This document shows positions 814 through 32,602 of a stretch of DNA of 49,795 nucleotides, piece by piece (the stretch's first letter is position 1; every line of letters starts with the position of its first letter). The position numbers were made by a program, and so were the translations under genes. Location: the NCBI GenBank assembly GCA_014860005.1, contig JACZKP010000121.1, positions 1-49,795 on the forward strand. Reading direction: 5' to 3'. This DNA comes from Verrucomicrobiota bacterium. Its GTDB lineage: Bacteria; Verrucomicrobiota; Verrucomicrobiae; Limisphaerales; UBA11358. The notes beneath the pieces were generated by a model that saw only the letters and a program-made list of their open reading frames with translations, did not search any database and was not told the DNA's origin.

Positions 814-890
814 GATCAAACAGTCAATGAATCCGTCAGGTCTTCAACTTCATAACCATCTATCGTTTAAGCAGGACGTGGCTGCCGGAG

Positions 891-1445
891 TCACGATTTC
901 GTCAGGTGGGCAAAAATGTCGCGATAAAACTCGGGATGGCTTTCCCAGGTTTGCGACGTGATCAAGCGGCCATCCACCACGCTTTCCTTGTCCACCCACT
1001 TGCCGCCGGCTTGTTCCACTTCCAACCGCACATTGCGATAGCACGTCAGCGTCCGCCCGCGCACCAGGCCCGCCGCCACCAGGATTTGCACGCCGTGACA
1101 GATGGAGAATATCCATTTGCCCTGCCGATGAAATTCCTGGATCAGCCGGATCACCTTGGGGTCGTGCCGCAGGAATTCCGGCGCGCGTCCGCCGATCAAC
1201 AGCACCGCCACGTACTCGCGCACCTTCACCTGCGCGAAGGTCAGGTCGCTGGGAATCCGGTAACCGGGCCGCTCGACGTAGGTGTTCCAATCCGGTTCGA
1301 AATCGTGAAGGACCCCGTGCAGCAGCTTCTTCTTTGTGGCCGCAATGGGCGCGGCATAGCCCGCCTCGCGGAAGCGGTGTTGCGCGTAGTAAATCTCCAG
1401 CGATTCGCCGGAGTCGTCAGTGATGATGAGAATCTTTTTGGGCAT
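891..1445 (-). CDS. DJ-1/PfpI family protein (type 1 glutamine amidotransferase-like)
   Basis: A 184-residue protein from ATG 1445 (MPKKILIITDD); a longer frame upstream lacks the conserved start. The flavodoxin-like beta strand KKILIITDDSGES opens the domain, with a conserved acidic residue in the first helix (E17 of SLEIYY). The nucleophile elbow is SICHG (C116-H117), and the IGGRAPEFLR segment (about 84-93) is typical of the PfpI branch. Family members act as chaperone/deglycase-like enzymes, glyoxalases or peptidases; the exact reaction cannot be told from sequence. It is a single gene without operon partners, with a large palindromic repeat directly upstream. Confidence 0.85.
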   Translation of the reverse strand: MPKKILIITDDSGESLEIYYAQHRFREAGYAAPIAATKKKLLHGVLHDFEPDWNTYVERPGYRIPSDLTFAQVKVREYVAVLLIGGRAPEFLRHDPKVIRLIQEFHRQGKWIFSICHGVQILVAAGLVRGRTLTCYRNVRLEVEQAGGKWVDKESVVDGRLITSQTWESHPEFYRDIFAHLTKS

Positions 1446-1501
1446 GGCTTGAGTTAATGGGAATTTGTTTTGGGCCGCGCGACGCAATCTGGAGCAGAAG
1501 G

Positions 1502-1770
1502 CTTAGGCGTAATGCCTTTCGGGAATTCAGACCGACGTTTGTCCCGGAGGGACATCCGGCCATAGCCCAGCGTTTCAACGCTGGGTTGAGCCGCCAAGCG
1601 GGACAAGTCCCGAAGGGACGGCAGAAAGCCGGCTCGGCAACGCGATGCTCTTTCGTCCCGCTGGGACTCGCTGATTTTGGATCGCGCAACCCAGCGTTGA
1701 AACTCTGGGCTATTTTCACAATGTCCCTCCGGGACAGGACCGTCCAATTCCCGAAAGGCATTAGGGCTAA
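1502..1770. repeat. 269-bp palindromic element (REP/MITE-like)
   Basis: The two ends are inverted copies: a perfect 17-bp arm at 1511-1527 pairs with 1746-1762 inside imperfect longer ends. Nested inside are a tgtcccggagggaca-type dyad (1540-1554) paired with 1722-1736, and a 24-bp dyad (1564-1587, built on cccagcg/cgctggg) paired with 1688-1711 with few changes. The element therefore folds as one long cruciform with smaller hairpins in each arm. It fills the space between PfpI and the hydrolase and encodes nothing recognisable. Related REP-like motifs are common in Verrucomicrobia genomes; a non-autonomous transposable element is the likeliest explanation. Confidence 0.75.
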
Positions 1771-1779
1771 CCCCGGCCG

Positions 1780-3837
1780 TTATAGCCGTGAGAGCCAATT
1801 CACCACTGCTTCCTCGGGCGCTGGCTCGGTTAGGACGCGCAGTTTGCGGGAGGCGCTGATTGCTTTGTACGCCGATTGAATCGAGGTTGTGGGAAAAACT
1901 CCCCCGGTGTTGTGCAACAACAATGGATTCGGCGCAGCCAGCATGGCCGCGCCCTCGAACGTGCCGATGTTTCTGAGTCCTGGACAGAAGAAGTCCGCTT
2001 CCAGCAAGACTTCATCACTTGCAATCTCGAGCGCGTTTCCGTCGGCCACCACGGCATCCACCGCCGGCGCGGCCAGCAATGCCCAGAGACCCGCCCGGCC
2101 CACACCGTGCAGCACCACTTTGCCATCCCGCCGGCCCCCGAATACCAGCGCCCGCCCGGCCGCGCCAGCAGTGACGAGGTCGCGCACGCGGGATTGCAGT
2201 TTGGTGCGATTGTAGGTGGTGAAGAAATTGGCAAATTGATTCGTGGGCTCGCCGCTCGAATAAGCCTGAAGCACCATGACGGCCTGGCCGCGTTCCAGCA
2301 GACTGGCCGCCAGACCAAGCGGTTCGCCATCCGTGCCTAAATACGCGTCCGCGTCATCGGCATTCGCCAGCACCACCAGGTTCTTTATGCGACTGGCGGA
2401 TCTGACGCGCGGGGTGAAACAAACCGCAGTCAGCGCCTGTTCCTCACCCTCGCGATGAATAACCATCTCCGAGCCGGACCAGGCTGAGTCCCGGCGCAAG
2501 GCTCTGAGTTTCGTTTCGACGACGAGGCCAGGCCACTCGACCTGCAAGGTGTGCTTCCAGGCGGGCAGCATCACTTGTCGAAACTTGGCTACGCCCGCCT
2601 GATTGCGCGGCACAAGCTTGCGCCACTGTTCGCGATACATCGCCTTGAGGGACTCATTAAACTCGTCCCGGCTCAGAGCGTTGGCGGGCAGTTTACCATC
2701 GGGAAACACGCGCAAGTCCGCGTCTGGCTCCTTTAGGTATGGCAATTCTTTGAGCGAAGCCGGATCGGGATGCCGCAAGAGCCATTGGCCAAACCATTCA
2801 TACACCGCCTCCCGGCTGGTTTGGTTGTAGTTGTGTCCGTAGTCAAAAATCACATAGCGCAGACGGTCGCTCGCGCCCAGCAGCCGGTAGATGTTCTCAA
2901 TGGCCGGCCCTTCGACCTCCAGCGTGGCTTTCGTCCAGTCGCCAGTGGCGGCTACCAGAATCTGCGGACACGGCGCGGCGGCGGCGGCAATCTCCATGTT
3001 GGAATACTGAACGCGGAGCCCGGGCGCGTTTTCGCAACTGCAACCGCCCTGCATCGAGTGACTCACCATCACCGCCGGAGCCAGCGCGGCAAAACGATCC
3101 TCAATCGCGCCCAGCATGAACGTCTGCGTCCCGCCACCCGAAGCCCCGGTGCAGGCCAGCCGCTTCTTGTCCACGTCCGGCAGCGACGCAAGAAAATCCA
3201 GCGCGCGAATGCTGTTCCACGTCTGTAATCCCATCAGGCTGATGTTCCAGAGCTGGTCCGTGCGATTCGTTCCAAACTGGCGATGAGTTTCATAGAAGGG
3301 ACGGTTCGGCGCTGCACCCGAGAATTGCGTGTCGTTGTACCCGACCATGTCGTAGGCAAACGCCACCATTCCCTGTCGCGCAAAACTGATGCAGCGCGCC
3401 GCCACACTGCCCTCCTTCGTGTCCGCCACCCGGCCATTGGACCAATGACCGTGTGGGTTCAGAATTCCGGGAAACGGTCCGCGACCCTGACCCAACGGGC
3501 GATAGAGATTTCCGGCCAGATAGAATCCCGGATAAGTCTCTAAATAAACCTTCTCGACGCTGTAACCATCGCGCTCGATCCGGCCGAAGATTTGCGGGTT
3601 GAGCGGTGTTTTGGCTGGCAACGGCCACAGCCCGCAACTCACCAGAACCTGCTGCCGGATTTCCTGCGCACGCGATTCCCAATCCGCACGCGTCGGGATT
3701 TCCGGAAACGTGCGCGGTGTGTTTAACGTCCTGACGGCTTCTCCCTCCGCAGCCCGCGCCGAAGGCGCAAGCAGACTGGAAACGAGAACGCCAAGGAACA
3801 GGCTGCCGAGATTCACGATGCGCTTGGGATGTTTCAT
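1780..3837 (-). CDS. Secreted alpha/beta hydrolase (acetyl xylan esterase / prolyl oligopeptidase-like)
   Basis: 685 residues from ATG 3837; the frame extends 28 codons further but only this start gives a signal peptide (MKHPKRIVNLGSLFLG, cleavage near ARA-AEG at about 30). The N-terminal hydrolase domain (about 60-355) has the oxyanion segment NPHGHW (128-132), the nucleophile elbow TGASGGG (S233), acid D300 (TGDWT) and base H335 (YGHNYN), a complete catalytic triad. The remaining 300 residues look like a second, degenerate alpha/beta hydrolase half without a GxSxG serine (GVGRAGL instead). Such two-domain esterases are abundant in Planctomycetes and Verrucomicrobia, where they probably deacylate polysaccharides outside the cytoplasm; the substrate is unknown. 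Confidence 0.82.
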   Translation of the reverse strand: MKHPKRIVNLGSLFLGVLVSSLLAPSARAAEGEAVRTLNTPRTFPEIPTRADWESRAQEIRQQVLVSCGLWPLPAKTPLNPQIFGRIERDGYSVEKVYLETYPGFYLAGNLYRPLGQGRGPFPGILNPHGHWSNGRVADTKEGSVAARCISFARQGMVAFAYDMVGYNDTQFSGAAPNRPFYETHRQFGTNRTDQLWNISLMGLQTWNSIRALDFLASLPDVDKKRLACTGASGGGTQTFMLGAIEDRFAALAPAVMVSHSMQGGCSCENAPGLRVQYSNMEIAAAAAPCPQILVAATGDWTKATLEVEGPAIENIYRLLGASDRLRYVIFDYGHNYNQTSREAVYEWFGQWLLRHPDPASLKELPYLKEPDADLRVFPDGKLPANALSRDEFNESLKAMYREQWRKLVPRNQAGVAKFRQVMLPAWKHTLQVEWPGLVVETKLRALRRDSAWSGSEMVIHREGEEQALTAVCFTPRVRSASRIKNLVVLANADDADAYLGTDGEPLGLAASLLERGQAVMVLQAYSSGEPTNQFANFFTTYNRTKLQSRVRDLVTAGAAGRALVFGGRRDGKVVLHGVGRAGLWALLAAPAVDAVVADGNALEIASDEVLLEADFFCPGLRNIGTFEGAAMLAAPNPLLLHNTGGVFPTTSIQSAYKAISASRKLRVLTEPAPEEAVVNWLSRL

Positions 3838-6541: not shown

Positions 6542-7435
6542 TCAGCGACTTTTGGTCGCTATTGGCTTCGTGGCCTTTCCCGTCCGCGGTTTTCGGGCAG
6601 CTTTACCAACTTTGGCTTTTGATGACTTCCTGCGCGCCAATTCGCGTCGTTGGCGGGTCGGTCTTGCCAAGCGGGGAGATCGGGCCTTGGTTTCAATGAT
6701 CGGCGCAGGAGTGGCCCCCGATTCGATTTCCACACCAAAAATCTCGGTCAGGTCCGCACCGGCCAATGCTGTGTCGGCGGCCGGAGCCGAGGCGATGGGT
6801 GTGGTCGCGGTGGTGCTGGCGGCGGTGACCAATTCCTGCATGTCCACGCCACGCAGGGTGAAGAATAGTTCCGGCTTTTCATCCAGCCGCGCACCCACGC
6901 CGTAGAGCACGGCGGCGACGTGTTTGCACATGTCCGCCCAGTCCGGGCACGAACAGTCGAGGTCAATCTCCTTGGGCGATGGAAAAAGTCCGGCGTCCTT
7001 GGCCGTGATGTCTGCGAGGATGTCCTTTGACAACCGGCCCTGCAACAGGTCAAGCAAGTTGATGACTTTGCCGGCGCTCCGGCTTTTGAAATCCTTCCAG
7101 CGTTTGGCAGCCAGCGGGCTGAAGCCGATGGCAATCTTGTACAAGTCCGAGCCTTGCACCAGCGCCTCAACCTTGCCCCGCAAGATTTGAAGATCAATGA
7201 CCGAGCCGTTGCGGACGTAGGTGCGCCCACGTGGCAGGCGGTTGGCAAAATCGCTGTAGGCTTCGAGGTTGTCGCACCAGGCCTTGCCCCAGAACGTGGT
7301 GGCGATCTTCCGGCTGGCGAGGTTCACGGGGGCGAGGGGGCGGCCTGACTTCTTGACGAGTTTCTTCGCGGCAGCTTCGGCCTTGCGGCGGCGCTCGGCC
7401 ACGGAGACGTAGGGGCGAAAGGAATACCAAGACAT
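6542..7435 (-). CDS. SWIM zinc-finger protein (YwqB-like partner of SNF2 helicase)
   Basis: 297 residues from ATG 7435 (MSWYSFRPYVSVAERR), the conserved family start; a 12-codon upstream extension is unlikely. The SWIM motif CXCX6CXH is seen as C161-C163-C170-H172 (DCSCPDWADMCKH) within an otherwise typical SWIM-protein body (FWGKAWCDNLE, GRTYVRNGSVIDL). The last 45 residues are an Arg/Lys-rich low-complexity tail that could bind nucleic acid. SWIM proteins of this type are encoded next to SNF2-family ATPases, as in Bacillus ywqA-ywqB. Here the gene lies 79 bp downstream of the SNF2 gene, same strand, with heptamer repeats in the spacer. It probably acts as a nucleic-acid-binding subunit; no biochemical role is established. 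Confidence 0.87.
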   Translation of the reverse strand: MSWYSFRPYVSVAERRRKAEAAAKKLVKKSGRPLAPVNLASRKIATTFWGKAWCDNLEAYSDFANRLPRGRTYVRNGSVIDLQILRGKVEALVQGSDLYKIAIGFSPLAAKRWKDFKSRSAGKVINLLDLLQGRLSKDILADITAKDAGLFPSPKEIDLDCSCPDWADMCKHVAAVLYGVGARLDEKPELFFTLRGVDMQELVTAASTTATTPIASAPAADTALAGADLTEIFGVEIESGATPAPIIETKARSPRLARPTRQRRELARRKSSKAKVGKAARKPRTGKATKPIATKSR

Positions 7436-7471
7436 GGGAGGAAGCGTGTTGCGAATGGCTTGTTTCGTCAA

Positions 7472-7499
7472 GTGATGCGTGATGCGTGATCCGTGAAAG
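7472..7499. repeat. Heptamer repeat, (GTGATGC)n type
   Basis: Four adjacent 7-bp units (gtgatgc, gtgatgc, gtgatcc, gtgaaag) fill the spacer between the SNF2 and SWIM genes. Read on the other strand they are TCACGCA-type units, the same family as the heptamers at 20414-20434 and 32603-32623. Confidence 0.7.
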
Positions 7500-7514
7500 G
7501 TCGTCGGGGGAGGA

Positions 7515-10307
7515 TCATTCGCTGCTCGCCGTCTTCAAGTCCAGCGCCACGAAGCGGAGCAGTTCGTCGTTCGACATTTCGGTCAGCAGTTTCTCCGCAC
7601 CGCTATCCGTGCCGAGGACGGATTCGGCCAGCGCCTTCTTCTCGGTAATGAGCGCGTCAATGCGTTCCTCAATGGTGCCGCGGCAGACAAACTTGTGGAC
7701 CAGCACGTTCTTCTTCTGCCCGATGCGGAAGGCGCGGTCGGTCGCCTGGTTCTCCACGGCAGGATTCCACCAGCGATCAAAGTGGATGACGTGGCTGGCG
7801 GCGGTGAGATTTAGGCCCGTACCGCCAGCCTTGAGCGACAGCACAAAAAATGGCGGGCCATCATCGCGCTGAAAATCCGCCACGAGTTGCTGGCGCTGCT
7901 TCACCGCCGTCGAGCCGTGCAACACGAGGCCGGAGCGGCCAAAAATGTCGCGTAGCCGCCCCGCCAACGGTTCGGTCATTTCGCGAAACTGTGTGAAAAT
8001 GAGCACCCTCTCCTGGCGTGAGGCGATTTCCTCGCACAGCTCGGCCAGCCGGAGAAACTTGCCGCTCTCATCTGCGCCAAACGCGCCGTCGTCCAGCCAG
8101 TGACTGGGGTGATTGCAGATTTGTTTGAAGCGCATCAGAAATGCGAGCACCAATCCGCGCCGCTGGATGCCGTCGGAAAGGATTTCGAGTTTCTCGCCGA
8201 GCTCGTGGACGCTTTTTCCGTAGAGGGCAGCCTGGCGTTTGGTGAGGGAACACCACGCGGTCAGTTCGGTTTTGTCCGGCAGATCGGCGATGATGCTCAG
8301 GTCGGTCTTGAGCCGGCGCAGGAGATAGGGACGCACCAGTTGGCGCAACGGGGCGAAGTTCGGCGGCTCGGCGGCTTGCAGGTTCTTGGCGTAACGCGAA
8401 AATTCCGGCGCGCTACCCAGCAAGCCTGGATTCAGAAAATCATAAAGCGACCACAAATCGCCGAGGCGGTTTTCGACCGGTGTGCCGCTCAGGGCGATGC
8501 GGGCGCGGGCGCGCAGCCGTTTGACGGCGCGGGCCTGGCGGGCGCCGGGATTCTTGATGGCCTGTGCTTCATCGAGCACGAGCAGCCGCCACTCGCGCTG
8601 CGCCAGCCAGTCGAGCCGCGCGGCCTGACCGTAGGTGGTGAGTAGCACATCCTTGCCAGCGAGGAACGCATCGGCAGTTTTTGCGTCGCGCCACCCGCCG
8701 CCGGGCGATTCGGACGGATGCGCGAAGCCCGCGCGCAAGGAGGGCGAGAACCGGGCGAGTTCGTTCTTCCAGTTCGCCAGCAACGAAGCGGGCGCGATGA
8801 TAAGGGAGGGAGCATTGGCCGCGTGACGCAGCGGCGCCTCGGCAGAGCGCCGCTGACTGTCTTGCGCTGAGATGGCGGCGTGCTGCCGAGATACCGCTAC
8901 GCCCTTGCCATGCTTCAACCGCAGCAGCAGCGCGATAACCTGAATGGTTTTACCCAGGCCCATGTCATCTGCGAGGCACGCGCCGAGGCCGAGTTGCTGC
9001 AAGTACCAAAGCCATTTTACTCCAGTCGCCTGATAAGGCCGCAACGTCGCGTGGAGGTGCTCGTTCGGATCAAAGCCCGCGTCGGTGTCCGGCTGCCGCA
9101 GTCGTTCCAGCGTTTCACGCAGCCAGCCGCCCGCCACGACTTCGCTCCAGTCCACCGTGGGTGCGGCCGTCTCGTCCGGCGTTTCCGCGCCGAGCTTGAC
9201 GCCAGCCAGCAACCGCATGGCTTCGAGAAAGGACACCCCGTCGCCCGCCGCGTGCCGCGCGACCCGCTTCCAATGATCCAGCACGCTGTTGAGTTTCTCG
9301 CGGTCCACCTCCACCCACTGGCCGCGCAGGGAAACCAGTCCGGAATCGGCAGCCATCAACGCCCGCCATTCCTCCTCCGTCAACTTCTGGCCGTCCAGTG
9401 TGGACTCGACGGAAAAACTGAGCAAGGTATCCACCCCCAAACCGGCGTTGCGCTGCTCGCCGACGCGCACGCTGACTTGCGGACGGGCGCCGCGCCCGTT
9501 CTTCCACCAGTTTGGAATGCGCGTGACGATTCCGCCGGCTTCGAGCGCGGGCACCTCGCGAAGGAACGCGTAGGCTTGCGGGGGTGTCCACGCCTGCGGC
9601 TGGAAAATGCGGCGGCTGTCGAGTTGCTCCCGCACCCAGGCGCTGCCCCCGGCCGCCTGTTGCACGGGTTCGAGGAGCGAGCGGAGAGCAGCTTGATTCT
9701 TCGTGCCGGCGTATTCCTGGAGAGCGCGCGCCAACGGCAGATGCACGGGTTTTTCCTGGGCGGAGAGGCGGTGCGTGTAAGTGGCCATGAAGGCGAACGG
9801 CGTCTCCGGCGAACGCTTGTTTTCCGCGAGATGAAACGTGACCTTGCCGAGTAGATGCAGCGCGGGATTGATTTGCGCCAGCCACGGCTTCAAACCGCCC
9901 GTCGTCCGCGCCTGCTCGCGCGCTTCCGCGTCCAGTTCGCGCCAGAGGCCGGCAAACACCTCCGGCGACGCATACTCCGCCCCGCGCATGGCCGGGATGC
10001 GCAACGTGAGCGCAAAAAACAGGTCGGCGGGCGGAACCGTTTCGGACGCGGCCTGGCCATCCGCCACCGCCGGAGAATGCGCCAAGGCCGCAAGAAATGC
10101 GTCGGCAAACTCGCGCCAGAACATGAACGCCGCCGGCCATCCGCCCTGCATTGCGCGTCGCGCGGCGAGCGTCAGCAGTCCGCGAGCGGAACTTTCGGCA
10201 AACGCCTCGCACCATTCCGTCTCCGCCTGAAACCCGGACGCAATGTCGCCTGCGGCTTCTTCAAGCTGCAGTCGCCCGTGCGGAGAGAGAACCAATTGAT
10301 GCGGCAT
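7515..10307 (-). CDS. SNF2-family DNA-dependent ATPase/helicase
   Basis: 930 residues. The N-terminal half (about 1-410) matches the SNF2-associated region of bacterial SNF2 proteins. The RecA-like motor follows: LRPYQATGVKW (422-432), Walker A DDMGLGKT (447-454), Walker B LDEAQ (578-582), SGTPVENR (607-614), LIFTQF (769-773), KAGGTGLNL (826-834) and the arginine-finger motif QATDRAFRIGQ (854-864). The motor is complete, so ATP-driven DNA translocation is expected. Residues about 466-500, between motif I and motif Ia, are an unusual insertion produced by a GC-rich hairpin in the DNA. The start lies 22 bp after the upstream small gene, so it is likely co-transcribed with the methyltransferase; the SWIM gene follows. 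Confidence 0.93.
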   Translation of the reverse strand: MPHQLVLSPHGRLQLEEAAGDIASGFQAETEWCEAFAESSARGLLTLAARRAMQGGWPAAFMFWREFADAFLAALAHSPAVADGQAASETVPPADLFFALTLRIPAMRGAEYASPEVFAGLWRELDAEAREQARTTGGLKPWLAQINPALHLLGKVTFHLAENKRSPETPFAFMATYTHRLSAQEKPVHLPLARALQEYAGTKNQAALRSLLEPVQQAAGGSAWVREQLDSRRIFQPQAWTPPQAYAFLREVPALEAGGIVTRIPNWWKNGRGARPQVSVRVGEQRNAGLGVDTLLSFSVESTLDGQKLTEEEWRALMAADSGLVSLRGQWVEVDREKLNSVLDHWKRVARHAAGDGVSFLEAMRLLAGVKLGAETPDETAAPTVDWSEVVAGGWLRETLERLRQPDTDAGFDPNEHLHATLRPYQATGVKWLWYLQQLGLGACLADDMGLGKTIQVIALLLRLKHGKGVAVSRQHAAISAQDSQRRSAEAPLRHAANAPSLIIAPASLLANWKNELARFSPSLRAGFAHPSESPGGGWRDAKTADAFLAGKDVLLTTYGQAARLDWLAQREWRLLVLDEAQAIKNPGARQARAVKRLRARARIALSGTPVENRLGDLWSLYDFLNPGLLGSAPEFSRYAKNLQAAEPPNFAPLRQLVRPYLLRRLKTDLSIIADLPDKTELTAWCSLTKRQAALYGKSVHELGEKLEILSDGIQRRGLVLAFLMRFKQICNHPSHWLDDGAFGADESGKFLRLAELCEEIASRQERVLIFTQFREMTEPLAGRLRDIFGRSGLVLHGSTAVKQRQQLVADFQRDDGPPFFVLSLKAGGTGLNLTAASHVIHFDRWWNPAVENQATDRAFRIGQKKNVLVHKFVCRGTIEERIDALITEKKALAESVLGTDSGAEKLLTEMSNDELLRFVALDLKTASSE
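8829..8855. repeat. Hairpin insertion inside the SNF2 gene
   Basis: A perfect 9-bp inverted repeat (cagcggcgc ... gcgccgctg) with a 9-nt loop lies within the SNF2 reading frame, at codons for about residues 485-493. The encoded stretch is Arg/Ser/Ala-rich and fits no SNF2 motif. It falls between helicase motifs I and Ia, at a surface position that tolerates insertions. Confidence 0.7.
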
Positions 10308-10329
10308 GGCAAATCAGGGTGTCGGGGAC

Positions 10330-11004
10330 TCAACGCTGCGCGCGCACTGCTGGCAGAAAAATGTGGAAGATGATGCTCGTCCGTCCACCACTGGTGTGGT
10401 GGGTTTCGCCGTGAGGGCTTCCTTTGGCCATGAGCGCTGACGCCTGAAACTTGGCTTCTCCACGTAAGCACAACTCCTCAGATCTTCTGGCGAGTTGTTT
10501 TTCGACGGCACGTTTGGCGGTCGCGATGTTACCGTCCATGACGAAGGCCAGCATGCCGCTGTAGTTCGGAACGGTGTTGTAGCCGCCGGCGAGCAAGCAG
10601 CCCATGCCGCCATCACCCACGTATTCGTGGACATTTGGACTCGGGACACCGCCATACGGGACATTCAGTCGCTTGGACTCGAACACGAAGTAGGGCCGCT
10701 GTCCCTTGATGTAGTGGTGGCGCAGGTGAATCTCCGCGTCGGTGCGTTCCTTCTCCTTGCCGGTCTTCGGGTCACGAATCTTCGTGTCTTCAGAAATGTG
10801 AAATGGCGGATCCGCCTCGTATCGCGCCTCCTGTGCGGCAATCATCGCCAGTTTCAACAAACCAGTGATTCGCGGCTCAAGCCACGCATCGCGCGGACTC
10901 GGAACATTCGGCCACGCATTTTCCACCAAACTAAAAATCTCGGCGCGGAAATCCGACGGCAGAACATCGCCGAGGAATTTGTGGGTTGCGCCGAGGAATC
11001 TCAT
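10330..11004 (-). CDS. Uncharacterised protein with PD-(D/E)XK nuclease-like residues, coupled to the methyltransferase
   Basis: 224 residues, ATG overlapping the methyltransferase stop as ATGA (11001-11004), which indicates translational coupling. I do not recognise a named family. The arrangement of charged residues fits a PD-(D/E)XK nuclease core: E43 in an early helix (LEPRIT), D89 starting a strand (TDAEIHL), then E109-x-K111 on the next hydrophobic strand (YFVFESKRL). A Gly-rich segment (about 129-149, VGDGGMGCLLAGG) and a FVMDGN strand follow. Its position between a DNA methyltransferase and an SNF2 ATPase suggests it is the DNA-cutting or DNA-binding subunit of a restriction-like system. 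The fold call is inference from pattern only. Confidence 0.6.
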   Translation of the reverse strand: MRFLGATHKFLGDVLPSDFRAEIFSLVENAWPNVPSPRDAWLEPRITGLLKLAMIAAQEARYEADPPFHISEDTKIRDPKTGKEKERTDAEIHLRHHYIKGQRPYFVFESKRLNVPYGGVPSPNVHEYVGDGGMGCLLAGGYNTVPNYSGMLAFVMDGNIATAKRAVEKQLARRSEELCLRGEAKFQASALMAKGSPHGETHHTSGGRTSIIFHIFLPAVRAQR

Positions 11005-14000
11005 GCAGTACGCGGCGCGGGTTCAAACATGGCGGCGAACATCGCGTCGGCGTCGTTGAGGGCGGCGGTGCGCGTCCAGTGCCGGCGGGCGAGGGGCTTG
11101 AGCACGAGCGCGCGGTTCGGCTCGAAGAGGGTGAAGCCGCGCGCGTAGGCGAGTTTGTGGCGCTTGTCGGTGATGGCCTTCTCGATGCCCGCGATGGCCT
11201 CGGCAACTTCGGTCTGCCCTTCGCTTTCGCGGTAGTTCGTCGTGGTCTTGCCTTTCGTGAGAATCAGCAGGCTTAGGCCAAACTTCTCCGCGATGCGGCT
11301 CTGCGCGCTCAGGCTCAGTCCCTTGCCGCGTCCCCAGATGTTGAGCGTCTGGCAAAGCTGTTTGGCGTAGGCAGCCCGCTCATCGGGGCTGGAATCGTCG
11401 AGCGTGGGAATTTCGCCGTCGAGACTGCCGGGCGTGGAACTGGGGATGAAACAGTTCAGCGTGTCCTCGATGAGAATCTTCTCGGTAGCCGTGACGCCGA
11501 AATACTCGAACACCAGCGGCTCGATGTCGCGCTTGGCGGCGGCGACTTCGTCTTCGCGCTCTGTCAGATTGAGCGGGGCTTTGGCGATGCGGGTGTGTGC
11601 TTCATGGACTCTCTTGGCAACGGCCGAGACGATGCGCTCGGCGGCGGCTTGATCGCGGCAATCTTTCGGCAAAGGGAATGGGAGGCGGAGCAATTCGGTG
11701 AAGTGAACCTTGTCGCGCTCCGAACCCCAGTTCGCAGCGGTTTGAAACAGAAAATACTTCGCGAAGGAAGAAGTAACGACGGCGGCGAGAAAACGCAGCA
11801 AGTCGTCGTCGCCTTTCTGTTTGGCAGCGATGGATTGAAGTGCGTGCTCGAAGACTACGGGAAAATCGCAGAAGGCAGCTTTGCCAAACCCTTGGGTCAC
11901 CAAAACCATTGGAGGAGCAAAGAGCTTTTTGTCGGGGCTACGATGAAGCTCAGTGGGCTGCGGGCCGATTGGCGCAGCATCGTCCGGCGTCAGCACAAGG
12001 CTGATCTCATCGCAACGCGCGTCGAGATAGAGTTGAGAATCCTTCCACCACCGAGGAATCGGATCGCCCTTACCGTGATAGGGCTTGAAGCCTTGGCCTT
12101 TCGCCCATCGCTTGGTTTCATCATCAGGGTCTCCAGCAATATCGCCGAGCGAGGGCAGGCGATACAGCCGATGGAGAAACGCCACGTCTCGGCCCGTGCC
12201 CCACAAAGCCTGTTTCCAGACGACGGACGCGCGCTTGTTCTGCGCACCCAGCAGGAGTTCTTGCAGGCGCAAGCCCTTTTGGTCATCGGGCAGCACGGTA
12301 ATGAGTGAGTGACGCGGGTCAGTGCGGTCCACTTTGGGCGTGTCGTAACGGACGACGGCTTGGTCAGCAGGCTTGTGAGGGGTGAACCGTGCGATGACGG
12401 CCGGGCAATCCGCCTCCTCGAAAATCAAGAAGCTGTAGTCGGCAAGCTGCATGACGTGGTCGAGGGAGAACTGCTTCATCCAGCCGGCCTGAAAAGCGTT
12501 CGTCCTCTCGTTCATGAACACCTTCGTCGGCAGCACTAGGCAGGCGCGGCCGTCGGCGCGGAGGTGCGCCGGGACTTTCCACATGAAGCCGTGCGCGCTC
12601 TGGCGTTCGGGGAAAAAGTAGGCGCGACGGGCGGCGGCGGACTTAGGCGCGTCAGCCAGATACGGGTTCTCTTTTGAGTCGAACCAGCGTTCCATCTCGG
12701 CATCACGCTCCTGCCCGCGGCCAATCCACGGTGGATTGCCGATGACCAGATGAAAGTCCGTCGGGAGCGGAAGATTTTCTCTGAAGAAATTCGCTTCCAG
12801 CACGCGCGGCGTTTCGCTGCCCTTGAAATCCTTTCCCGATTCGGCCAGCAACGGCGGCAGCACTTTCTGGTCACTTTTCTCGCGTTCCAGTTCCCGCTTG
12901 AGCTGCCAGATGTCCGCCGGTTCGAGCTGGTCGAACAACGCCAGATACAAACTGAAGCAGGTGATACGGCAGGCGGTGACGTTTAAGTCCACGCCCCAGA
13001 AGTTTTTGCACAAGAGTTCGCGCAAGGCGCGGGCGCGCTCGACGTTGGACTTGCGGGGGTTCTCAAAACGCCACTCCTCGGCCATGCGGTTGAACAGGAT
13101 GACCAAAAAAATCCCCGACCCGACTGACGGGTCGCAACACTTCTTGTCGAGCAGCGTGGGCCAGCCTTCGGTGGCGAGGTCCACGGTGAGTTCGGCCAGA
13201 TGCCGGGGCGTGTAGAACGAGCCAGTCTGGCTTTGCAGCGTCTGGCTTTCATTCCGCAGGAAGCTCTCGTAGATGGCGCTGATGGTCTCGACCGGGATGA
13301 GGCGGAAGTCATAGACCGGAAATCCGAACGACTGCTGCCCGGCGTCCTCGCCATTCAGAAAGTCGCGCAGGACATCCAGGTGGGCTGCGTGGACAGCGCG
13401 GCTTTCGCCTTCCAACTCCTCGCCGAAGAGACTGCCGTTGAAGTCGCCCTTCACGGCTTTGAAAATCTTGAACAGCGTCTCCTTGGCTTGGGTGGGCGAG
13501 CCTTCCTTGAGCATCTCTTGAATGCTCGGCGTCGGGTGGCCGGGCTTGGTCGCGAGGGTCACGCCGGCATCGTGCTTCAGATAGTCGTTGCTCAACACGC
13601 CACGCGCGCGGAGGTAGCAGGTAAACAGCAGCCGACCCAGCACCGCGTGCGCGACGGACGGCTTGAGCGCGTCGTCGCCGGAGCAGAGGCGCTTGCTCGC
13701 AGCGTTGAGGCTGCGGAGCAAGGTGCGGTCAACGCCGTTCTCGGATTGGAAGCTGCCGCGTTTACGAGGCTCAAGGTAGATGCGGCCGGTCTCCACGCGG
13801 CGGATGAAGCCCGTGAGTTCGAGTGCGGACTTGATGTGCGTCAGTGTTTCCACCAAACGCGCATCGTCTTCGGCTTCCGCGATGGGCTTCTGGTCGGGCA
13901 AGGCGAGCGCGGAATAGACGCGGACTTCGGAGGGATCTCGCACCACAAGCAGCGTGGCCGTGCCTTGATTCCACAGCAGGCGGTGAAGCTCCGCCTCGGC

Positions 14001-14222
14001 GGCAGGATTCTTTTTCGCAACGCGCTTGAAATAGACCGTCGGCTTGTTCTCGACGGTCAGGACGGCTTCGAGCCCGAGGCTTCGCCAAGCCCGGCGGATG
14101 AGATGCGCGGAGTTGCGCGCCTGCGGGTCGGCAGTCCACTCCGCTTCAGAGCGATAAAGCACACTGGCGGCAGCATTTCGCAGCCAGCCTTCCGGGAAGA
14201 AGTTGTCTGTGCTTCTGCTCAT
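11001..14222 (-). CDS. Large N6-adenine DNA methyltransferase (Type IIG / Eco57I-like)
   Basis: 1073 residues from ATG 14222; a TTG at 14240 would add six. The catalytic domain lies in the middle: a YTPRHLAE helix, SAM-binding motif I DPSVGSG (about 364-370), GVDLN (about 410) and the adenine-flipping motif IV GNPPW (about 495-499). An N-terminal region of about 240 residues contains a TATLLVVRDPSEVRVYS strand pair seen in large Type IIG-like enzymes. About 500 C-terminal residues would carry target recognition. I see no certain nuclease motif in it. The downstream gene, overlapping by ATGA, may supply that activity. It is the first gene of a four-gene minus-strand unit with SNF2 and SWIM proteins. 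Confidence 0.88.
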   Translation of the reverse strand: MSRSTDNFFPEGWLRNAAASVLYRSEAEWTADPQARNSAHLIRRAWRSLGLEAVLTVENKPTVYFKRVAKKNPAAEAELHRLLWNQGTATLLVVRDPSEVRVYSALALPDQKPIAEAEDDARLVETLTHIKSALELTGFIRRVETGRIYLEPRKRGSFQSENGVDRTLLRSLNAASKRLCSGDDALKPSVAHAVLGRLLFTCYLRARGVLSNDYLKHDAGVTLATKPGHPTPSIQEMLKEGSPTQAKETLFKIFKAVKGDFNGSLFGEELEGESRAVHAAHLDVLRDFLNGEDAGQQSFGFPVYDFRLIPVETISAIYESFLRNESQTLQSQTGSFYTPRHLAELTVDLATEGWPTLLDKKCCDPSVGSGIFLVILFNRMAEEWRFENPRKSNVERARALRELLCKNFWGVDLNVTACRITCFSLYLALFDQLEPADIWQLKRELEREKSDQKVLPPLLAESGKDFKGSETPRVLEANFFRENLPLPTDFHLVIGNPPWIGRGQERDAEMERWFDSKENPYLADAPKSAAARRAYFFPERQSAHGFMWKVPAHLRADGRACLVLPTKVFMNERTNAFQAGWMKQFSLDHVMQLADYSFLIFEEADCPAVIARFTPHKPADQAVVRYDTPKVDRTDPRHSLITVLPDDQKGLRLQELLLGAQNKRASVVWKQALWGTGRDVAFLHRLYRLPSLGDIAGDPDDETKRWAKGQGFKPYHGKGDPIPRWWKDSQLYLDARCDEISLVLTPDDAAPIGPQPTELHRSPDKKLFAPPMVLVTQGFGKAAFCDFPVVFEHALQSIAAKQKGDDDLLRFLAAVVTSSFAKYFLFQTAANWGSERDKVHFTELLRLPFPLPKDCRDQAAAERIVSAVAKRVHEAHTRIAKAPLNLTEREDEVAAAKRDIEPLVFEYFGVTATEKILIEDTLNCFIPSSTPGSLDGEIPTLDDSSPDERAAYAKQLCQTLNIWGRGKGLSLSAQSRIAEKFGLSLLILTKGKTTTNYRESEGQTEVAEAIAGIEKAITDKRHKLAYARGFTLFEPNRALVLKPLARRHWTRTAALNDADAMFAAMFEPAPRTA

Positions 14223-14351
14223 GAAATTGACGCAGCCCAAATTACAGGCCCGGTGCCAGTTGAAAAGCAGTTATTCATGCCGCCAAGGTTACCATGCGGG
14301 GTGAGACAATTACGGGGGTAGGCTCCAGATTCTATCCGAGCGATAAGACCG

Positions 14352-17508: not shown

Positions 17509-20500
17509 GTGAATCAGGTTGAAAATGGTGGGACGAAGCTGCTGCGTTTGCTGCGCGAGCGGATTGTTATCATTGACGGCGCGCTGGGCACCATGATCCA
17601 GCAACGCCAGCTTGATGAGGCGGCCTTCCGTGGCCAGCGGTTTGCGGACTGGAAGGGCAAGGACCTACAGGGCTGCAATGATCTGTTGAATATTACCCAG
17701 CCTCACATTATCGAGGAGATCCATTGCGAGTATCTCGAAGCCGGTGCCGATATCGTTGAAACGAACACATTCAATTCCCAATCCATCTCGCTCGCTGATT
17801 ACGGACTCGAATCGCTGTCCTATGATCTGGCCAAAGCCGGCGCGCAGTGCGCCCGGAACGCCGCAGATAAAGTCATGGCGCGGCAACCGGGGCGAGTGTG
17901 CTTAGTGGCCGGCGCGATTGGGCCGACAACAAAAACCTCGTCCATCTCGACGGATGTCAGCAGTGCCGCCACACGCGCCTGCACCTTTGACCAACTCGTC
18001 ACTTCGTATGGCGAACAGATTCGCGGCTTGCTGGACGGCGGCTCGGATGTGCTGCTGGTCGAAACAATCTTCGACACGCTCAACGCAAAGGCGGCGTTCT
18101 TTGCCATCCAGCAGATTTTCGAGGAGCGCGGTATTGCCGCCCTCCCCTGCCCGGCGTTGCCCGTGCAATCTCAAATCTCAAATCTCAAATCTCAAATCCC
18201 CGTGATGGCTTCCGTCACGTTTATTCAGGCCGGAAGCAACCGCGGCGTCACGGGCCAAACGGTCGAAGCCTTTTGGAATTCAATTTCCCACGTGCCATTG
18301 CTCAGTGTGGGGATGAATTGCGCGCTCGGACCGAAGGAAATGCGCCCGCTCATCGAGGAGTTGGCAAAAGTCGCGCCGATTTATGTGAGTTGTTATCCGA
18401 ACGCCGGATTGCCCAATCCCCTGCTTCCGACGGGCTTTCCGGAAACACCGGAGTCACTTGCCCCGCAGCTTGAGGAATGGGCGCGGAACGGCTGGTTGAA
18501 CCTGGTGGGTGGTTGCTGCGGCACGACGCCCGCTCATATTAAACGGATTGCCGAGGCGGCCAAAGGTTTGCCGCCCCGCACGCCCGTGACCGTTGAGCCT
18601 TACCTGCGGTTGAGCGGACTCGATGCGCTCACAGTTACCCCGCAGACCAACTTCGTGAACATCGGCGAACGCACGAATGTTGCCGGCTCCCCGAAATTCG
18701 CCCAACTCATCAAGGCCGGCGATTTTGAAGCCGCCGTGTCCATCGCGCGCCAGCAGGTCGAAAACGGCGCTCAGGTCATTGATGTCTGCATGGATGAAGG
18801 CATGATTGACGGCGTCGCGGCGATGACCCGCTTCCTCAATCTCATCGCGGGTGAATCCGAAATCGCCAAAGTGCCGGTGATGGTGGACTCCTCGAAGTGG
18901 GAGGTCCTCGAAGCCGGTTTGAAATGCATTCAGGGCAAAGGCATCGTCAACTCGATCAGCCTCAAGGAAGGGGAGGAGAAATTTCTCCAGCAGGCGAATC
19001 TGGTCCGGCGTTACGGCGCCGCCGTGGTCGTGATGGCGTTCGATGAACGCGGCCAGGCGGACACCTTTGAACGCCGCGTTGCCGTGTGCCGGCGCGCGTA
19101 TGAGTTGCTCACACAGCGGGTGGGCTTTCCGCCGCAGGACATTATTTTTGATCCCAACGTGCTGACGGTGGGCACCGGCATGGAGGAACACGCGAACTAT
19201 GCGGTGGATTTCATCCGGACCACGCACTGGATCAAACAGAACCTCCCGGACGCCAAAGTGAGCGGCGGCATCAGCAACATCAGCTTCAGCTTCCGCGGCA
19301 ACAACACGGTGCGCGAAGCGATGCACTCGGCCTTCCTTTACCACGCCATCAAAGCCGGTCTCGACATGGGCATTGTGAATCCGGGCATGTTGGAAGTTTA
19401 CGAGGAGATTCCCAAAGTCCTGCTCGAACACGTCAAAGACGTGCTGCTGAACCGGCGGCCGGACGCCACCGAGCGCCTGTTAAAGTTTGCCGAGTCAGTG
19501 AAGCAAAAGGACAAAACCGAGGTGACCGACAGCGCATGGCGGAACGGCACCGTGGAGCAACGCCTCGAACACGCGCTGGTCAAGGGTATTGTGGATTTCA
19601 TTGAAACCGATGCGGAGGAAGCGCGCCAGAAACTGGGTCGTCCCCTGGCAGTGATCGAAGGGCCGCTCATGGCCGGCATGAATGTAGTGGGTGACTTGTT
19701 CGGTTCGGGCAAAATGTTTTTGCCCCAAGTGGTGAAATCCGCGCGGGTCATGAAAAAGGCCGTGGCACATCTCACACCGTTCATGGAGGCCGAGAAGGCC
19801 GCGCTCGTCGCCGCCGGCCACGCCGTGAAGGCGCAAGGCAAAGTCTTGCTCGCCACGGTCAAAGGCGACGTGCATGACATCGGCAAGAACATCGTGGGTG
19901 TGGTGCTGGCGTGCAACAACTACGAAATCATTGATCTCGGGGTGATGGTGCCATGCGAGAAAATCCTCGCCACGGCCCGCGAGCAGCAGGTGGACATCAT
20001 CGGGTTGAGCGGGCTGATCACGCCCAGCCTGGACGAAATGGTCCATGTCGCGCGCGAACTCGAGCGCGAAGGTTTCAAGCAACCGCTGCTCATCGGCGGC
20101 GCAACGACGAGCAAGGCGCACACTGCGGTGAAGATTGCACCGCACTTCCGTGAACCGGTCATGCACGTCGTGGACGCCAGCCGCGCCGTGCCCGTGGTGA
20201 GCGGCCTGTTGAGCGCGGAGCAAAAGCCCGCGCTGGTGCAGCAAATCCGTGAGGAATACGAACGCGCGCGGGCCCATCACGCGGGACAGAAAGCGCGGTT
20301 GATCCCGTTGGCGCAAGCCCACGACCGCGCGCCGAAATTAAGTTACGAAGGTCTGCCGCAGCCTGCTTTTACCGGCGTGCGCGTTCTGAATTCGGATGGT
20401 TCAGCACGCCCCGCGCCTCACGCCTCACGCCTCACGCTCGCCGAGCTTGTCCCCTTCATTGACTGGTCGCCATTCTTTCATACCTGGGAACTCCGCGGCG

Positions 20501-21420
20501 TTTATCCGAAAATTCTCCAGCATGAAAAGCACGGAGAGGAAGCGCGGAAACTTTTTGCCGACGCTCAGAAGTTGCTCGGCGAAATTGTCGCGAAGGAATC
20601 GCTGCAACTTCGGGCGGTCTATGGATTGTTCCCGGCAAACTCCGTCGGCGACGACGTGGAGGTTTACGACGACGACTCACGAACGAAACTCCTGACCCGG
20701 TTTCATTTCCTCCGCCAACAAATCGAGAAAGGCGACGGCACGCCGAACTGGTGTCTGGCGGATTTTATTGCGCCAAAGCGTAGGACAGGCGTCGCGCCTG
20801 TCTCCGACTCAAACCCGTTAAAGAGTGAGACAGGCGCGACGCCTGTCCTACGGGATTACCTCGGCGCCTTCGCTGTGACAACCGGCCATGGGCTCAAGGA
20901 ACTCGTCGAGAAGTTCAAAGCCGATCACGACGACTACAACGCCATCATGGCCGAGGCCTTGGCTGACCGGCTGGCGGAAGCTTTCGCAGAATTCCTTCAC
21001 CAGCGCGTACGCCAGGAATGGGGCTACGGCCAAGTCGAAAAGTTCACGCCGGAGGAAATGATTCAAGAAAAGTACCGCGGCATCCGCCCCGCGGCCGGTT
21101 ATCCCGCCTGCCCCGATCACACGGAAAAGGGCACGCTCTGGCGTTTGTTAAACGTGGAGAAGAATGCGGGCATCAAACTCACCGAAAGTTTTGCCATGTG
21201 GCCCGGCAGTTCCGTTAGCGGACTTTATTTCGCGCACCCGGAATCGAAATATTTTGCCGTCGGCAAACTGGACCGCGATCAGGTGCTGGATTACCACCGA
21301 CGCAAGGGCTTTACCCTTCAGGAGGTGGAAAGATGGCTCGGACCTTACTTGAATTACGAACCGAGCAAAGCTGTTGCCGCTGAGAGCCTGATCTTATCCC
21401 ATTGCGGGCAGCCGAATTGA
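17509..21420 (+). CDS. metH: Cobalamin-dependent methionine synthase
   Basis: 1303 residues from GTG 17509. Transfers a methyl group from methyltetrahydrofolate to homocysteine through cobalamin. Module order is complete: homocysteine domain ([10 protein letters not shown] near 23-32; zinc ligands C271 in GMNCALGP and C336-C337 in VGGCCGTTP), pterin domain ([14 protein letters not shown]), cap, B12 domain (DVHDIGKNI with axial-ligand H789) and SAM activation domain ([25 protein letters not shown]). It is about 75 residues longer than E. coli MetH. Much of the excess comes from three repeat-derived in-frame insertions: a heptamer tract near residues 218-230, another near 969-976 and a hairpin near 1091-1115. 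All catalytic motifs survive. The stop is 1 bp from a convergent gene. Confidence 0.97.
18167..18197. repeat. Heptamer tract (AATCTCA)4 inside metH
   Basis: Four perfect tandem copies of a 7-bp unit plus a partial fifth, read in frame as a Gln/Ser/Ile/Asn-rich linker within the homocysteine-binding module. Because the unit is not a multiple of three, gain or loss of one copy would shift the metH frame. Confidence 0.85.
20414..20434. repeat. Heptamer tract (CGCCTCA)3 inside metH
   Basis: Three perfect 7-bp units at the junction between the B12 domain and the activation domain (encoding part of a PHASRLT stretch). Same TCACGCN family as the spacers at 7472-7499 and 32603-32623. Confidence 0.8.
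20779..20852. repeat. Perfect 25-bp inverted repeat (hairpin element) inside metH
   Basis: Arms 20779-20803 and 20828-20852 are exact reverse complements separated by a 24-nt loop. The element is translated in frame as a peptide containing [10 protein letters not shown] and [10 protein letters not shown], inserted between FIAPK and DYLGAF of the conserved activation domain. The GTAGGACAGGCG-type arm is a dispersed palindrome found in Verrucomicrobia, often outside genes; here it has landed in an essential enzyme without breaking it. Confidence 0.9.
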
Positions 21421-24439: not shown

Positions 24440-27070
24440 TTAGTCGCACCTCAGCGCCACCATCGGGTCCACTTTGGTCGCGCGGCGGGCGGGCAGCCAG
24501 CAGGCGATCAGTGCGACCACGACCAGCAGCGCCGCCACCAGTGCCACAACCAGCAGGCTGTCGGATTCAAGCCCCGGCGCGATGGCTTTCAACGCTCGGG
24601 TCATGCCAGCGGCACCAACCAATCCAAGCGCGGTACCGAGCAACGCAAGCTTCAGCCCTCGGCCCAGGACGAGTTTCAGCACGTCGTGAACTTGGGCACC
24701 GAGCGCCATACGCACGCCAATCTCGTTGGTCCGTTGCGTAACGAATCCGGCCATGACGCCGTAGATTCCGAGCGCGGCCAGGAGCAGGCCCAGGCCAGCA
24801 AACGCACTCAACAGCCAGCCGCCCACGGCAAACTGGCTGTGCGTTTGCGCTACCATGGCGCGCACCGATCCGGCCTGGCTCAGTGGCAAATCAGGATCAA
24901 GTTCGGCGACCGCTTGTCGCAGCGCGGCCGTGGAAATGTTGCCCCTGACAGCGACGGTCAAACTGCACTGCGATTCCTGCGCCAAAGGCCGGTAGCTTTG
25001 AAACCGGGTGGAAGGTTCGCCGGCGTCCGTGGAAGATTGCACATCATTTACCACACCCACGATCTCCAACCAGGCATCCGGGAAACCGATGCGTTTGCCG
25101 ACCGCGGATTCGCCCGGCCAATAGGTACGAGCCAGCGTGTCGTTGACGATGACCACGTTGGGTCGGTCCTCGGTGTCCGCAGCGGTGAAGTCGCGCCCGT
25201 CCAGCAAACGCATTCCCAACGTCGCAAAATAGTCAGGGCTGACAAAGTTGACACTGCGGAGATTCCGGCGTCCCGAGGTCGTCTCCGACTGATGTTCGAC
25301 CGCGAGGTCGGTCGCCATCCGGAAGCCCGAGAGCGGCAACGTGCTGGCAACCGCCGCGCGTTCAACGCCAGGCAGTGCGACCAGCTTTTCCCGGAATCGC
25401 TCGGCAAAGGCGTGTCGCAGTTTGCCGGTGCCATACTTGTCGCTCGGCAGAACGAGTTGCCCCGTGGATAATCCGTCCACGCGCCAGCCCGGATCCCGGG
25501 CGCCGAAGTGTTTCAATCCGTTCACCACCAGGCCCGCCCCCGCCAGCAGCGTGAGCGCCAGCGCCGCTTGCACGACAATCAATCCGTGACGCATCCGGTG
25601 CTGCGCGCGGTCCCCCTTGGCGCCACGCGAACCTTGCTTCAGCGCGGCATTCACATCCGTGCGCGAAGCGAGCCAGGCAGGGACAAGACCGAACGCCAGA
25701 CCAGTCAGCGTTGAGGCGCCAAGCGCGAATCCGAGAACGACGAAGTTGAGCTTCAAGGTCAGCAAGGGTTTGCCATCCTCCACCAACTGGCTGTTCAGAA
25801 TCTGATTGCCCCAGTGCGAGAGCAGGACGCCCAAACAGCCACCGAGAGCGGCGATGAGCAGACTTTCCGTGAGCAACTGTCGCAACAAGCGTCCGCGCGG
25901 CGCACCCATGGCGCCCCGAATGGCCAGTTCACGCGCACGCAAAGCGGTGCGGGCGAATTGAAGGTTGGCCAGGTTCGCGCAGGCAATCAACAACACGAAA
26001 CCCGCCAGCCCCATGATCAGCCAAAGCATGATCTTGCCGCGCGGGTCAATCCGGGCTTGCGCGAGAGGCAATATGCGGAGTCCCACTTCGCCGTTGGTAT
26101 CCGGATGATCCTGGCGCATCCTGGCGGCAAGGGCCTCAATACCAGCCTGGGCTTGGGCGAAGGACAACCCCGGCTTGAGTCGCGCCACCACATCCAGGTA
26201 ACTCGCACCCCGGTTCTGCCGTTGGTCGTCCGTGAACGCGATCGGTCGCAGTACATCCACCGATCCCCATTGGTGGCTGTCCTGGAAACTGGCCGGCATC
26301 ACGCCAATCACGGTGACGGCCCGTCCATCCAATTGGAGCACGCGACCGAGGATGTTGGTGTCAGCCGCGAAACGCCGGAGCCAGAAACCGTGATCCAGGA
26401 TCACGACGCCATTCTGGCCGGGGCTATCCTCTTCGGGCGTGAATCCACGGCCCAGCAGCGGTTGAATACCCAGCATCGGGATCAAATCGTCCGTAGCCTC
26501 CATGGCCCGAAGTCGTTCGGCGGGCTGCCCGGGTTCGGACAGATTGTAAGACCGTACGTTCACTGCCGCCATGTGCTCGAAGACATTGTTCTGTTGCTGC
26601 TGATCCAAAAAGTTTGCCGGCGAATGTGGCCAGCGTTGCGAATGCGGCGACGTTCGGAACACCCGCACCAGCCGGTCGGGCTCAGGATACGGCAGCTTCG
26701 GCAGGAGGAGTGAATGCAGTCCGGTGAACATGGACGTGTTCACGCCGATACCAAGCGCGAGCGTAAGCACCGCAATGGTGGTGAACCCCGGATTCTTCCG
26801 CAGCATCCGCAGGCCAAATCGAATATCCTGCCACGTCGCCTCGCCAAAACTTGCACCGCGCCTTTCCCGGCATTCCTCGCGAACGCTCTGCACATTGCCA
26901 AACCGTTTCCGCGCCTTGCGTTCGGCTTCCTCCGGTGACATTCCCGCGGCGAGGTTCTCCGCCGCGCGCTGCTCGAGGTGGAAACGCAGTTCCTCGTCAA
27001 TTTCCTGCTTCACCGTTCGTCGTTGTCCGAGCGAGCGAAGCCAGCGCCAGATTGTATGGAGGGGATTCAT
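24440..27070 (-). CDS. ADOP-type MacB-like ABC permease 1
   Basis: 876 residues. The first 90 residues form the ADOP permease prefix domain ([37 protein letters not shown]). The MacB-like architecture follows: TM1 with [17 protein letters not shown], a periplasmic core domain, a three-helix FtsX domain near the middle ([12 protein letters not shown]) and a second periplasmic and FtsX domain at the C-terminus ([13 protein letters not shown]), ending DPMVALRCD. These permeases use the energy of a cytoplasmic ATPase to move substrates from the periplasm or to signal mechanically. It is the most diverged of three tandem copies and is separated from the next by 13 bp. Confidence 0.93.
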
Positions 27071-27083
27071 CGGTTCGATTTCG

Positions 27084-29798: not shown

Positions 29799-29811
29799 GT
29801 GTTCGATCTCA

Positions 29812-32490: not shown

Positions 32491-32602
32491 AGGTTTACTA
32501 CGCCATTCAATTGAAGCCGGAATCCCTGTGGGATTCATCCATGGAATTTCCGAACGACATGGCAGTCAGGGCAGTGAGAATGTCGGTGTTTGTTTTCGCT
32601 CG

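Follow-up and report, generated by a model that had tools for sequence, protein, structure and literature searches.

In Type IIG restriction-modification enzymes, the nuclease and methyltransferase (MTase) domains lie in one chain (PMC4081073). A split form has been suggested in Haloferax volcanii for HVO_A0006, a PD-(D/E)XK protein of 219 amino acids (aa), and HVO_A0237, a Type IIG-like MTase without that domain (PMC4389544). MTases that combine modification and specificity (M~S), such as M.DrdI and M.XcmI, are listed for Type II systems (PMC3874165), while the core of DISARM (defence island system associated with restriction-modification) is DrmA/DrmB (PMC9142583). Here, we analysed a 49,795-base stretch of a Verrucomicrobiota genome (contig JACZKP010000121.1; hereafter the window), in which an adenine MTase gene and the gene for a 224-aa PD-(D/E)XK-like protein (10330-14240) probably form a two-gene restriction-modification system. 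The MTase would supply modification (M) and specificity (S) and the small protein restriction (R), the nuclease being aimed by the MTase. The features of the pair are:

11001-14240, minus strand: adenine MTase, open reading frame (ORF) from a TTG at 14240, with an in-frame ATG at 14222
13113-13133, minus strand: MTase motif DPSVGSG, residues 370-376, with D370, P371, G374, S375 and G376 invariant
12726-12737, minus strand: MTase motif NPPW, residues 502-505, all four invariant
11901-12095, minus strand: hypervariable cassette, MTase residues 716-780, with discrete allelic types that are swapped among relatives
10330-11004, minus strand: ORF of the small 224-aa protein, a likely PD-(D/E)XK-like nuclease subunit
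10876-10878, minus strand: E43, start of the first core helix (conservation and AlphaFold2 model)
10738-10740, minus strand: D89, second core strand (conservation and AlphaFold2 model)
10672-10680, minus strand: E109-S-K111, third core strand (conservation and AlphaFold2 model)

The ATG at 14222 gives the 1073-residue MTase found in the protein database (P0086) and is the start chosen in a first-pass annotation made from the DNA alone. The ATG of the small-protein gene overlaps the MTase stop codon as ATGA.

By its sequence, the larger protein is a gamma-class adenine DNA methyltransferase. It matches the Pfam families N6_Mtase (7.7e-14) and Eco57I (1.2e-9) as well as the PADLOC Type IIG model (residues 58-974, 1.4e-70), and its profile matches other adenine MTases in the PDB, MmeI and DrdV among them. 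The DPSVGSG motif, presumably for binding S-adenosylmethionine (AdoMet), and the NPPW motif, which we take to be catalytic, are both intact; the residues given above are invariant among 53 MTases. This 53-row alignment (A5) and the 57-row small-protein set used below (A4) are hand-picked subsets of proteins and loci. No conserved nuclease catalytic triad was found in the aligned N-terminus (residues 1-310), where the D/E/K columns comprise one at 90% (D171) and three at 80% (K72, E150, E279), none of them in E-x-K spacing, so that this region appears unlike the nuclease of a fused Type IIG enzyme.

The 224-aa protein is likely a PD-(D/E)XK-like nuclease subunit and the putative cutter. Pfam, PADLOC and NCBIfam hold no family for it, and ten divergent relatives gave no Pfam or PADLOC family, save one sub-threshold match. 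Searching the PDB by sequence, with the protein alone or as a profile, returned nothing better than E 0.5, and no relative was found in the plasmid and viral collections. The family comprises 85 proteins, the window's own included. In the 78 that remain once 7 short fragments are left out (set A2), E43, D89 and K111 are each fully conserved and E109 occurs in 77. In the wider 57-protein set, D89, E109 and K111 are present throughout; E43 occurs in 56, the remaining one being gapped at this position (alignment A3 omits the first codon of the window protein, and its numbering is one lower). The AlphaFold2 model (pLDDT, the predicted local distance difference test, 86.9) has the PD-(D/E)XK core order, with the signature D...(D/E)-x-K in core strands and an acidic residue in the first core helix; the fold matches listed for it include MunI, SwaI, BsoBI and EcoRI. 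The first-pass annotation had described an adenine MTase with intact DPSVGSG and NPPW followed by a PD-(D/E)XK-like protein with E43, D89 and E-x-K, and had suggested the structure prediction reported here. Both identifications agree with our data: the MTase by its Pfam families and invariant motifs, the small protein by its conserved residues and their placement in the model. The small protein was also considered as a piece of the MTase, an idea rejected when profile comparison found nothing (probability 0.2%).

The MTase and small-protein genes are a widespread, unnamed and recurrent two-gene pair. A genome collection (84,980 species by its own description) was scanned with two short peptide patterns from the small-protein alignment, which find only loci matching one of the two. 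The 17 loci obtained come from Verrucomicrobiota, Planctomycetota, a Nostoc, proteobacteria and a Gemmatimonadetes metagenome-assembled genome, and all 17 have the MTase directly upstream on the same strand. In the phylum of the nearest sequenced relative (locus L001), the small protein is present in 6 of 387 sampled genomes, with the MTase upstream at all six loci; the six best MTase genomes among the 387 are these same six. A second phylum (392 genomes) yielded 12 small-protein loci in 11 genomes, 11 of them with the MTase upstream and the twelfth situated 41 bases from a contig end. Counting once the loci found in two scans (L001, L005, L012), 31 of 32 loci from five phyla have the MTase immediately upstream, the 32nd being cut by the contig end; recurrent adjacency of MTase and nuclease genes is a feature of Type II restriction-modification in the broad sense. 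Among ten more distant MTases with wider flanks, seven have a small-like ORF downstream by profile, two are followed by ORFs that escape the profile (L082, 235 aa; L083, 227 aa), and L087 is uninformative. Moreover, in the protein-database listing the two proteins share equal-sized contigs in 22 cases besides the window (0.44 expected). The open-access literature searched, which yielded reviews of Type I/II systems and the Haloferax study, contained no paper found to describe such a pair as conserved and adjacent. If our interpretation holds, a nuclease family without a model in the libraries searched, present in 6/387 and 11/392 genomes of two phyla, gains a role.

Some copies of the pair are irregular. 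The MTase is broken into pieces in L010 and L121; in L010 (6528-9791 and 9788-10372) it is divided between two ORFs and the nuclease is without the E43 segment, apparently a decaying copy. On a 12520-base contig (P0090/P0070), the MTase is 96% identical to the window's in its catalytic part and the nuclease 58%, a mismatch that may reflect partner exchange or a chance coincidence of contig sizes.

Sequence comparison indicates that the stretch ~716-780 of the MTase behaves as a cassette: it has been exchanged among relatives without regard to the MTase backbone or to the nuclease. In five paired relatives, identity to the window MTase falls from 92-96% in the catalytic part to 41-55% in this segment, while four members with a backbone only 74-79% identical carry cassettes 75-82% identical to the window's. 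Two unpaired close relatives have cassettes of 26% (P0092) and 95% (P0087) identity. There are at least three broad cassette types; divergent MTases can carry the same type, and close ones can differ in type. In 231 comparisons among 22 paired loci, the identity of the cassette correlates little with that of the backbone (r 0.19) and, given the backbone, not with that of the nuclease (partial r 0.00, equalled or exceeded in 1004 of 2000 permutations). The adjoining segments 781-800 and 801-850 do co-vary with the nuclease (partial r 0.44 and 0.31; 0/2000 permutations), the backbone as defined including residues 800-900 and thus overlapping the second segment; residues 1-310 (0.04) and 851-1060 (-0.12 to -0.14) do not. 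The 22 loci come from 24 contigs, less two with a truncated MTase, and a first run on all 24 gave a partial r of -0.02 (1619/2000 permutations as large in size). MTase and nuclease were matched by equal-sized contigs for 20 of the 22 loci, the pairing in the window and L001 being certain. The cassette is likely part of the target recognition domain. If it does set the target, a nuclease that stays unchanged through cassette swaps would be aimed by the MTase.

The nucleases of classical Type II systems with M~S MTases recognise DNA themselves. An ordinary Type II system of this kind, with a small nuclease that reads its target site without help from the MTase, would suit a protein within the size range of Type IIP enzymes, many of which go with gamma-class MTases (PMC4081073), and the fold matches named above point the same way. 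A self-sufficient nuclease, however, would have to follow the changes of its MTase if the cell is to survive, and this nuclease does not track cassette type: between the window and L001, the nucleases are 86% identical and the cassettes 41%. We therefore regard an own-site nuclease as unlikely, if still a serious competitor.

In the two-gene system that we favour, the MTase would mark the host's DNA at a single adenine motif. Incoming DNA without the mark would be cut by the small PD-(D/E)XK protein, which would either bind the MTase sitting on that DNA or be recruited by it. The nuclease would have no specificity of its own, because it is indifferent to the cassette type of its partner, and a single cassette swap would re-aim marking and cutting; the pair would in effect be a Type IIG enzyme with the cutter as a separate subunit. 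What the data show is the pairing, the motifs, the core order of the model, the cassette swaps and the absence of a recurrent link to the genes described below. We infer that the MTase methylates, that the small protein cleaves, that the two form a complex, that the MTase guides the nuclease and that the pair defends against phage. Systems differing in these ~65 residues should then differ in both methylated motif and cleavage site, making recognition directly readable. More tentatively, and with a chance that we place somewhat short of even, the pair could represent a widespread unnamed class of restriction, in which an unspecific small nuclease is aimed by an M~S MTase and a ~65-residue cassette re-aims both at once, permitting target switching without host killing.

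Downstream of the pair lie two further genes, both separate neighbours:

7515-10307, minus strand: SNF2 ATPase of the DUF3670 type, 930 aa (ORF and Pfam)
6542-7471, minus strand: SWIM zinc-finger protein, partner of the SNF2 gene, with a TTG start (Pfam SWIM, 3.6e-5)

A 22-bp gap separates the small-protein and SNF2 genes, and an alternative in-frame ATG at 7435 in the SWIM gene leaves 79 bp to the SNF2 gene. The first-pass annotation had reported four co-directional genes with the ATGA overlap and these two gaps, which the ORF check confirmed, all on the minus strand. Its SNF2 and SWIM identities were upheld by Pfam domains (SNF2-rel_dom, DUF3670 and Helicase_C in the former, SWIM in the fourth ORF). 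It had further proposed that the four constitute one restriction-type defence system, in which the MTase marks, the SNF2-SWIM pair moves along DNA and the small protein cuts. The four genes are genuine; their joining into one system is a further claim and is not supported.

SNF2-SWIM is an independently recurrent pair that merely adjoins the MTase-small pair. SWIM is found in 132 of the 387 genomes that yielded the small protein six times, and an SNF2 gene lies within 1.5 kb at 26 of the 30 best SWIM loci, in keeping with the earlier remark that such pairs are common. Wider regions were taken around 20 SWIM loci from the 132 genomes (19 among the 30 best matches, L113 outside them): SNF2 is present in 18, once on the other strand, and a profile search of their 347,774 bases found an MTase or small protein in none. 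SWIM and the small protein occur together in seven genomes (four of the 387, three of the 17), on different contigs in all seven, as judged by contig number in four and by differing contig sizes in three (SWIM contigs of 49,360, 126,283 and 15,704 bases; pair contigs of 3,216, 37,398 and 165,326). Conversely, tblastn detected SNF2 near the pair in one of the 17 pattern-scan loci (L016) and SWIM in none, the visible neighbourhood being short at L003, L005, L008, L014 and L017 (contigs <10 kb). L016 has a different gene order and a different SNF2 type, which contains a sub-threshold SWIM match; it is a paralogue, the closest SNF2 (63%) and the SWIM gene of that genome being on other contigs. With 47 SNF2 matches (E <= 1e-10) in the 17 pair genomes (~86 Mb, summed from rounded sizes), ~0.14 would be expected by chance in the 264 kb of loci against the one observed, an upper bound as some matches are pieces of one gene.

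The closest sequenced genome carries the pair at the same site without SNF2-SWIM. L001 shares metH, ppdK, the MTase and the small protein with the window at ~87% DNA identity (86% for the pair), and their alignment breaks off at window base 10328, 2 bp beyond the stop codon of the small gene. The L001 genome as a whole has no close relative of the window SNF2 (best 43%) and no SWIM match. Just downstream of the pair in L001, a 259-bp ppdK fragment (10693-10951), 91.9% identical to that genome's own ppdK, suggests insertion or recombination at this site. As a side observation, metH (methionine synthase by resemblance) adjoins the pair or lies close to it in three loci (window 17509-21420; L001 1-3471; L092 11470-15420), the first two sharing one site and L092 being a distant case.

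Certain observations weigh against a purely two-gene system. Besides the co-directional layout and the 22-bp gap, the protein-database listing places the small protein and SNF2 on equal-sized contigs in three cases (0.27 expected). On contigs of 31140 and 53176 bases, each with a single source for both proteins, SNF2 is 97% and 90% and the small protein 84% and 80% identical to the window's, respectively; in the third case (10805 bases) the sources differ, perhaps by chance. The neighbourhood of the small gene and SNF2 is thus probably kept in at least two close relatives and older than one genome. No recurrence was found beyond close kin. MTase-small and SNF2-SWIM occur as two independent pairs, the outcome under which the first-pass annotation would have called the arrangement an accident of neighbourhood. 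The four-gene system was rejected on this linkage and appears very improbable; a restriction-type role is likely for the MTase and small protein only. We regard SNF2-SWIM as a general ATPase unit associated with DNA or with transcription, presumably YwqA/YwqB-like (a literature search on SNF2-SWIM gave nothing useful), and as an ATPase/zinc-finger pair unrelated to the MTase and nuclease.

Alternatively, the pair might borrow the motor of the gene that happens to lie next to it (Type III Res in some loci, SNF2 here), in the way that Type I/III systems use a translocase. Type III Mod and Res genes enclose the pair in two loci of different phyla, L081 (3504-7231, between 832-3507 and 7203-9206, with short overlaps) and L128 (3626-7325, between 1764-3629 and 7552-10176); L131 has a Type III Mod adjoining the pair and a large ORF with a relative in L012, a locus that itself has a DNA methylase and a ResIII gene nearby. 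When 39 pair loci and the window were clustered, however, helicase-type neighbours were common only to twos, with differing motors and orders (the scan of neighbours peculiar to one locus covered only a few pair loci), and we consider borrowing highly unlikely. Elsewhere in the window, three consecutive MacB/FtsX-like permease genes (24440-32538) share repeated DNA of 73-83% identity.

Compared with known systems, the window resembles DISARM in having an adenine MTase near an SNF2 gene. DrmB is matched by none of the four proteins (for SNF2 and the MTase, among the best 25 of 36 and 34 families, respectively), DUF1998 is absent from them and from 9 other window ORFs scanned, and the SNF2 matches to DrmA/DrmD are weaker than those to other SNF2 families. 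For Zorya, SNF2 scores 284.8 bits against ZorD (cut-off 1500), with no ZorA/ZorB among the proteins scanned. The SNF2 architecture and SWIM neighbour recall the SCO1167/SCO6262-type helicase, the NCBIfam model of which gives 555 bits, below its cut-off of 1200. Classical Type II systems with an M~S gamma MTase share a separate nuclease with the pair (PMC4081073); they differ in that their nuclease has its own site, against which the cassette data argue here. The Haloferax proteins are likened to the pair by description only: their genes are separated, and the source describes HVO_A0006 as a fragment (PMC4389544), whereas here the pair is conserved and adjacent. Type IIG enzymes (MmeI, BpuSI, DrdV) have, like the pair, a gamma-class MTase core with a C-terminal recognition region, and the window MTase carries the AdoMet and NPP(Y/F/W) motifs of that class; recognition is common to cutting and marking in Type IIG and would be so in the pair. 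Unlike the single-chain enzymes, the window encodes its putative nuclease in a separate 224-aa ORF, and residues 1-310 of the MTase appear to be without the triad. If this reading is correct, cut-and-mark enzymes gain a split form, with R apart and M and S joined.
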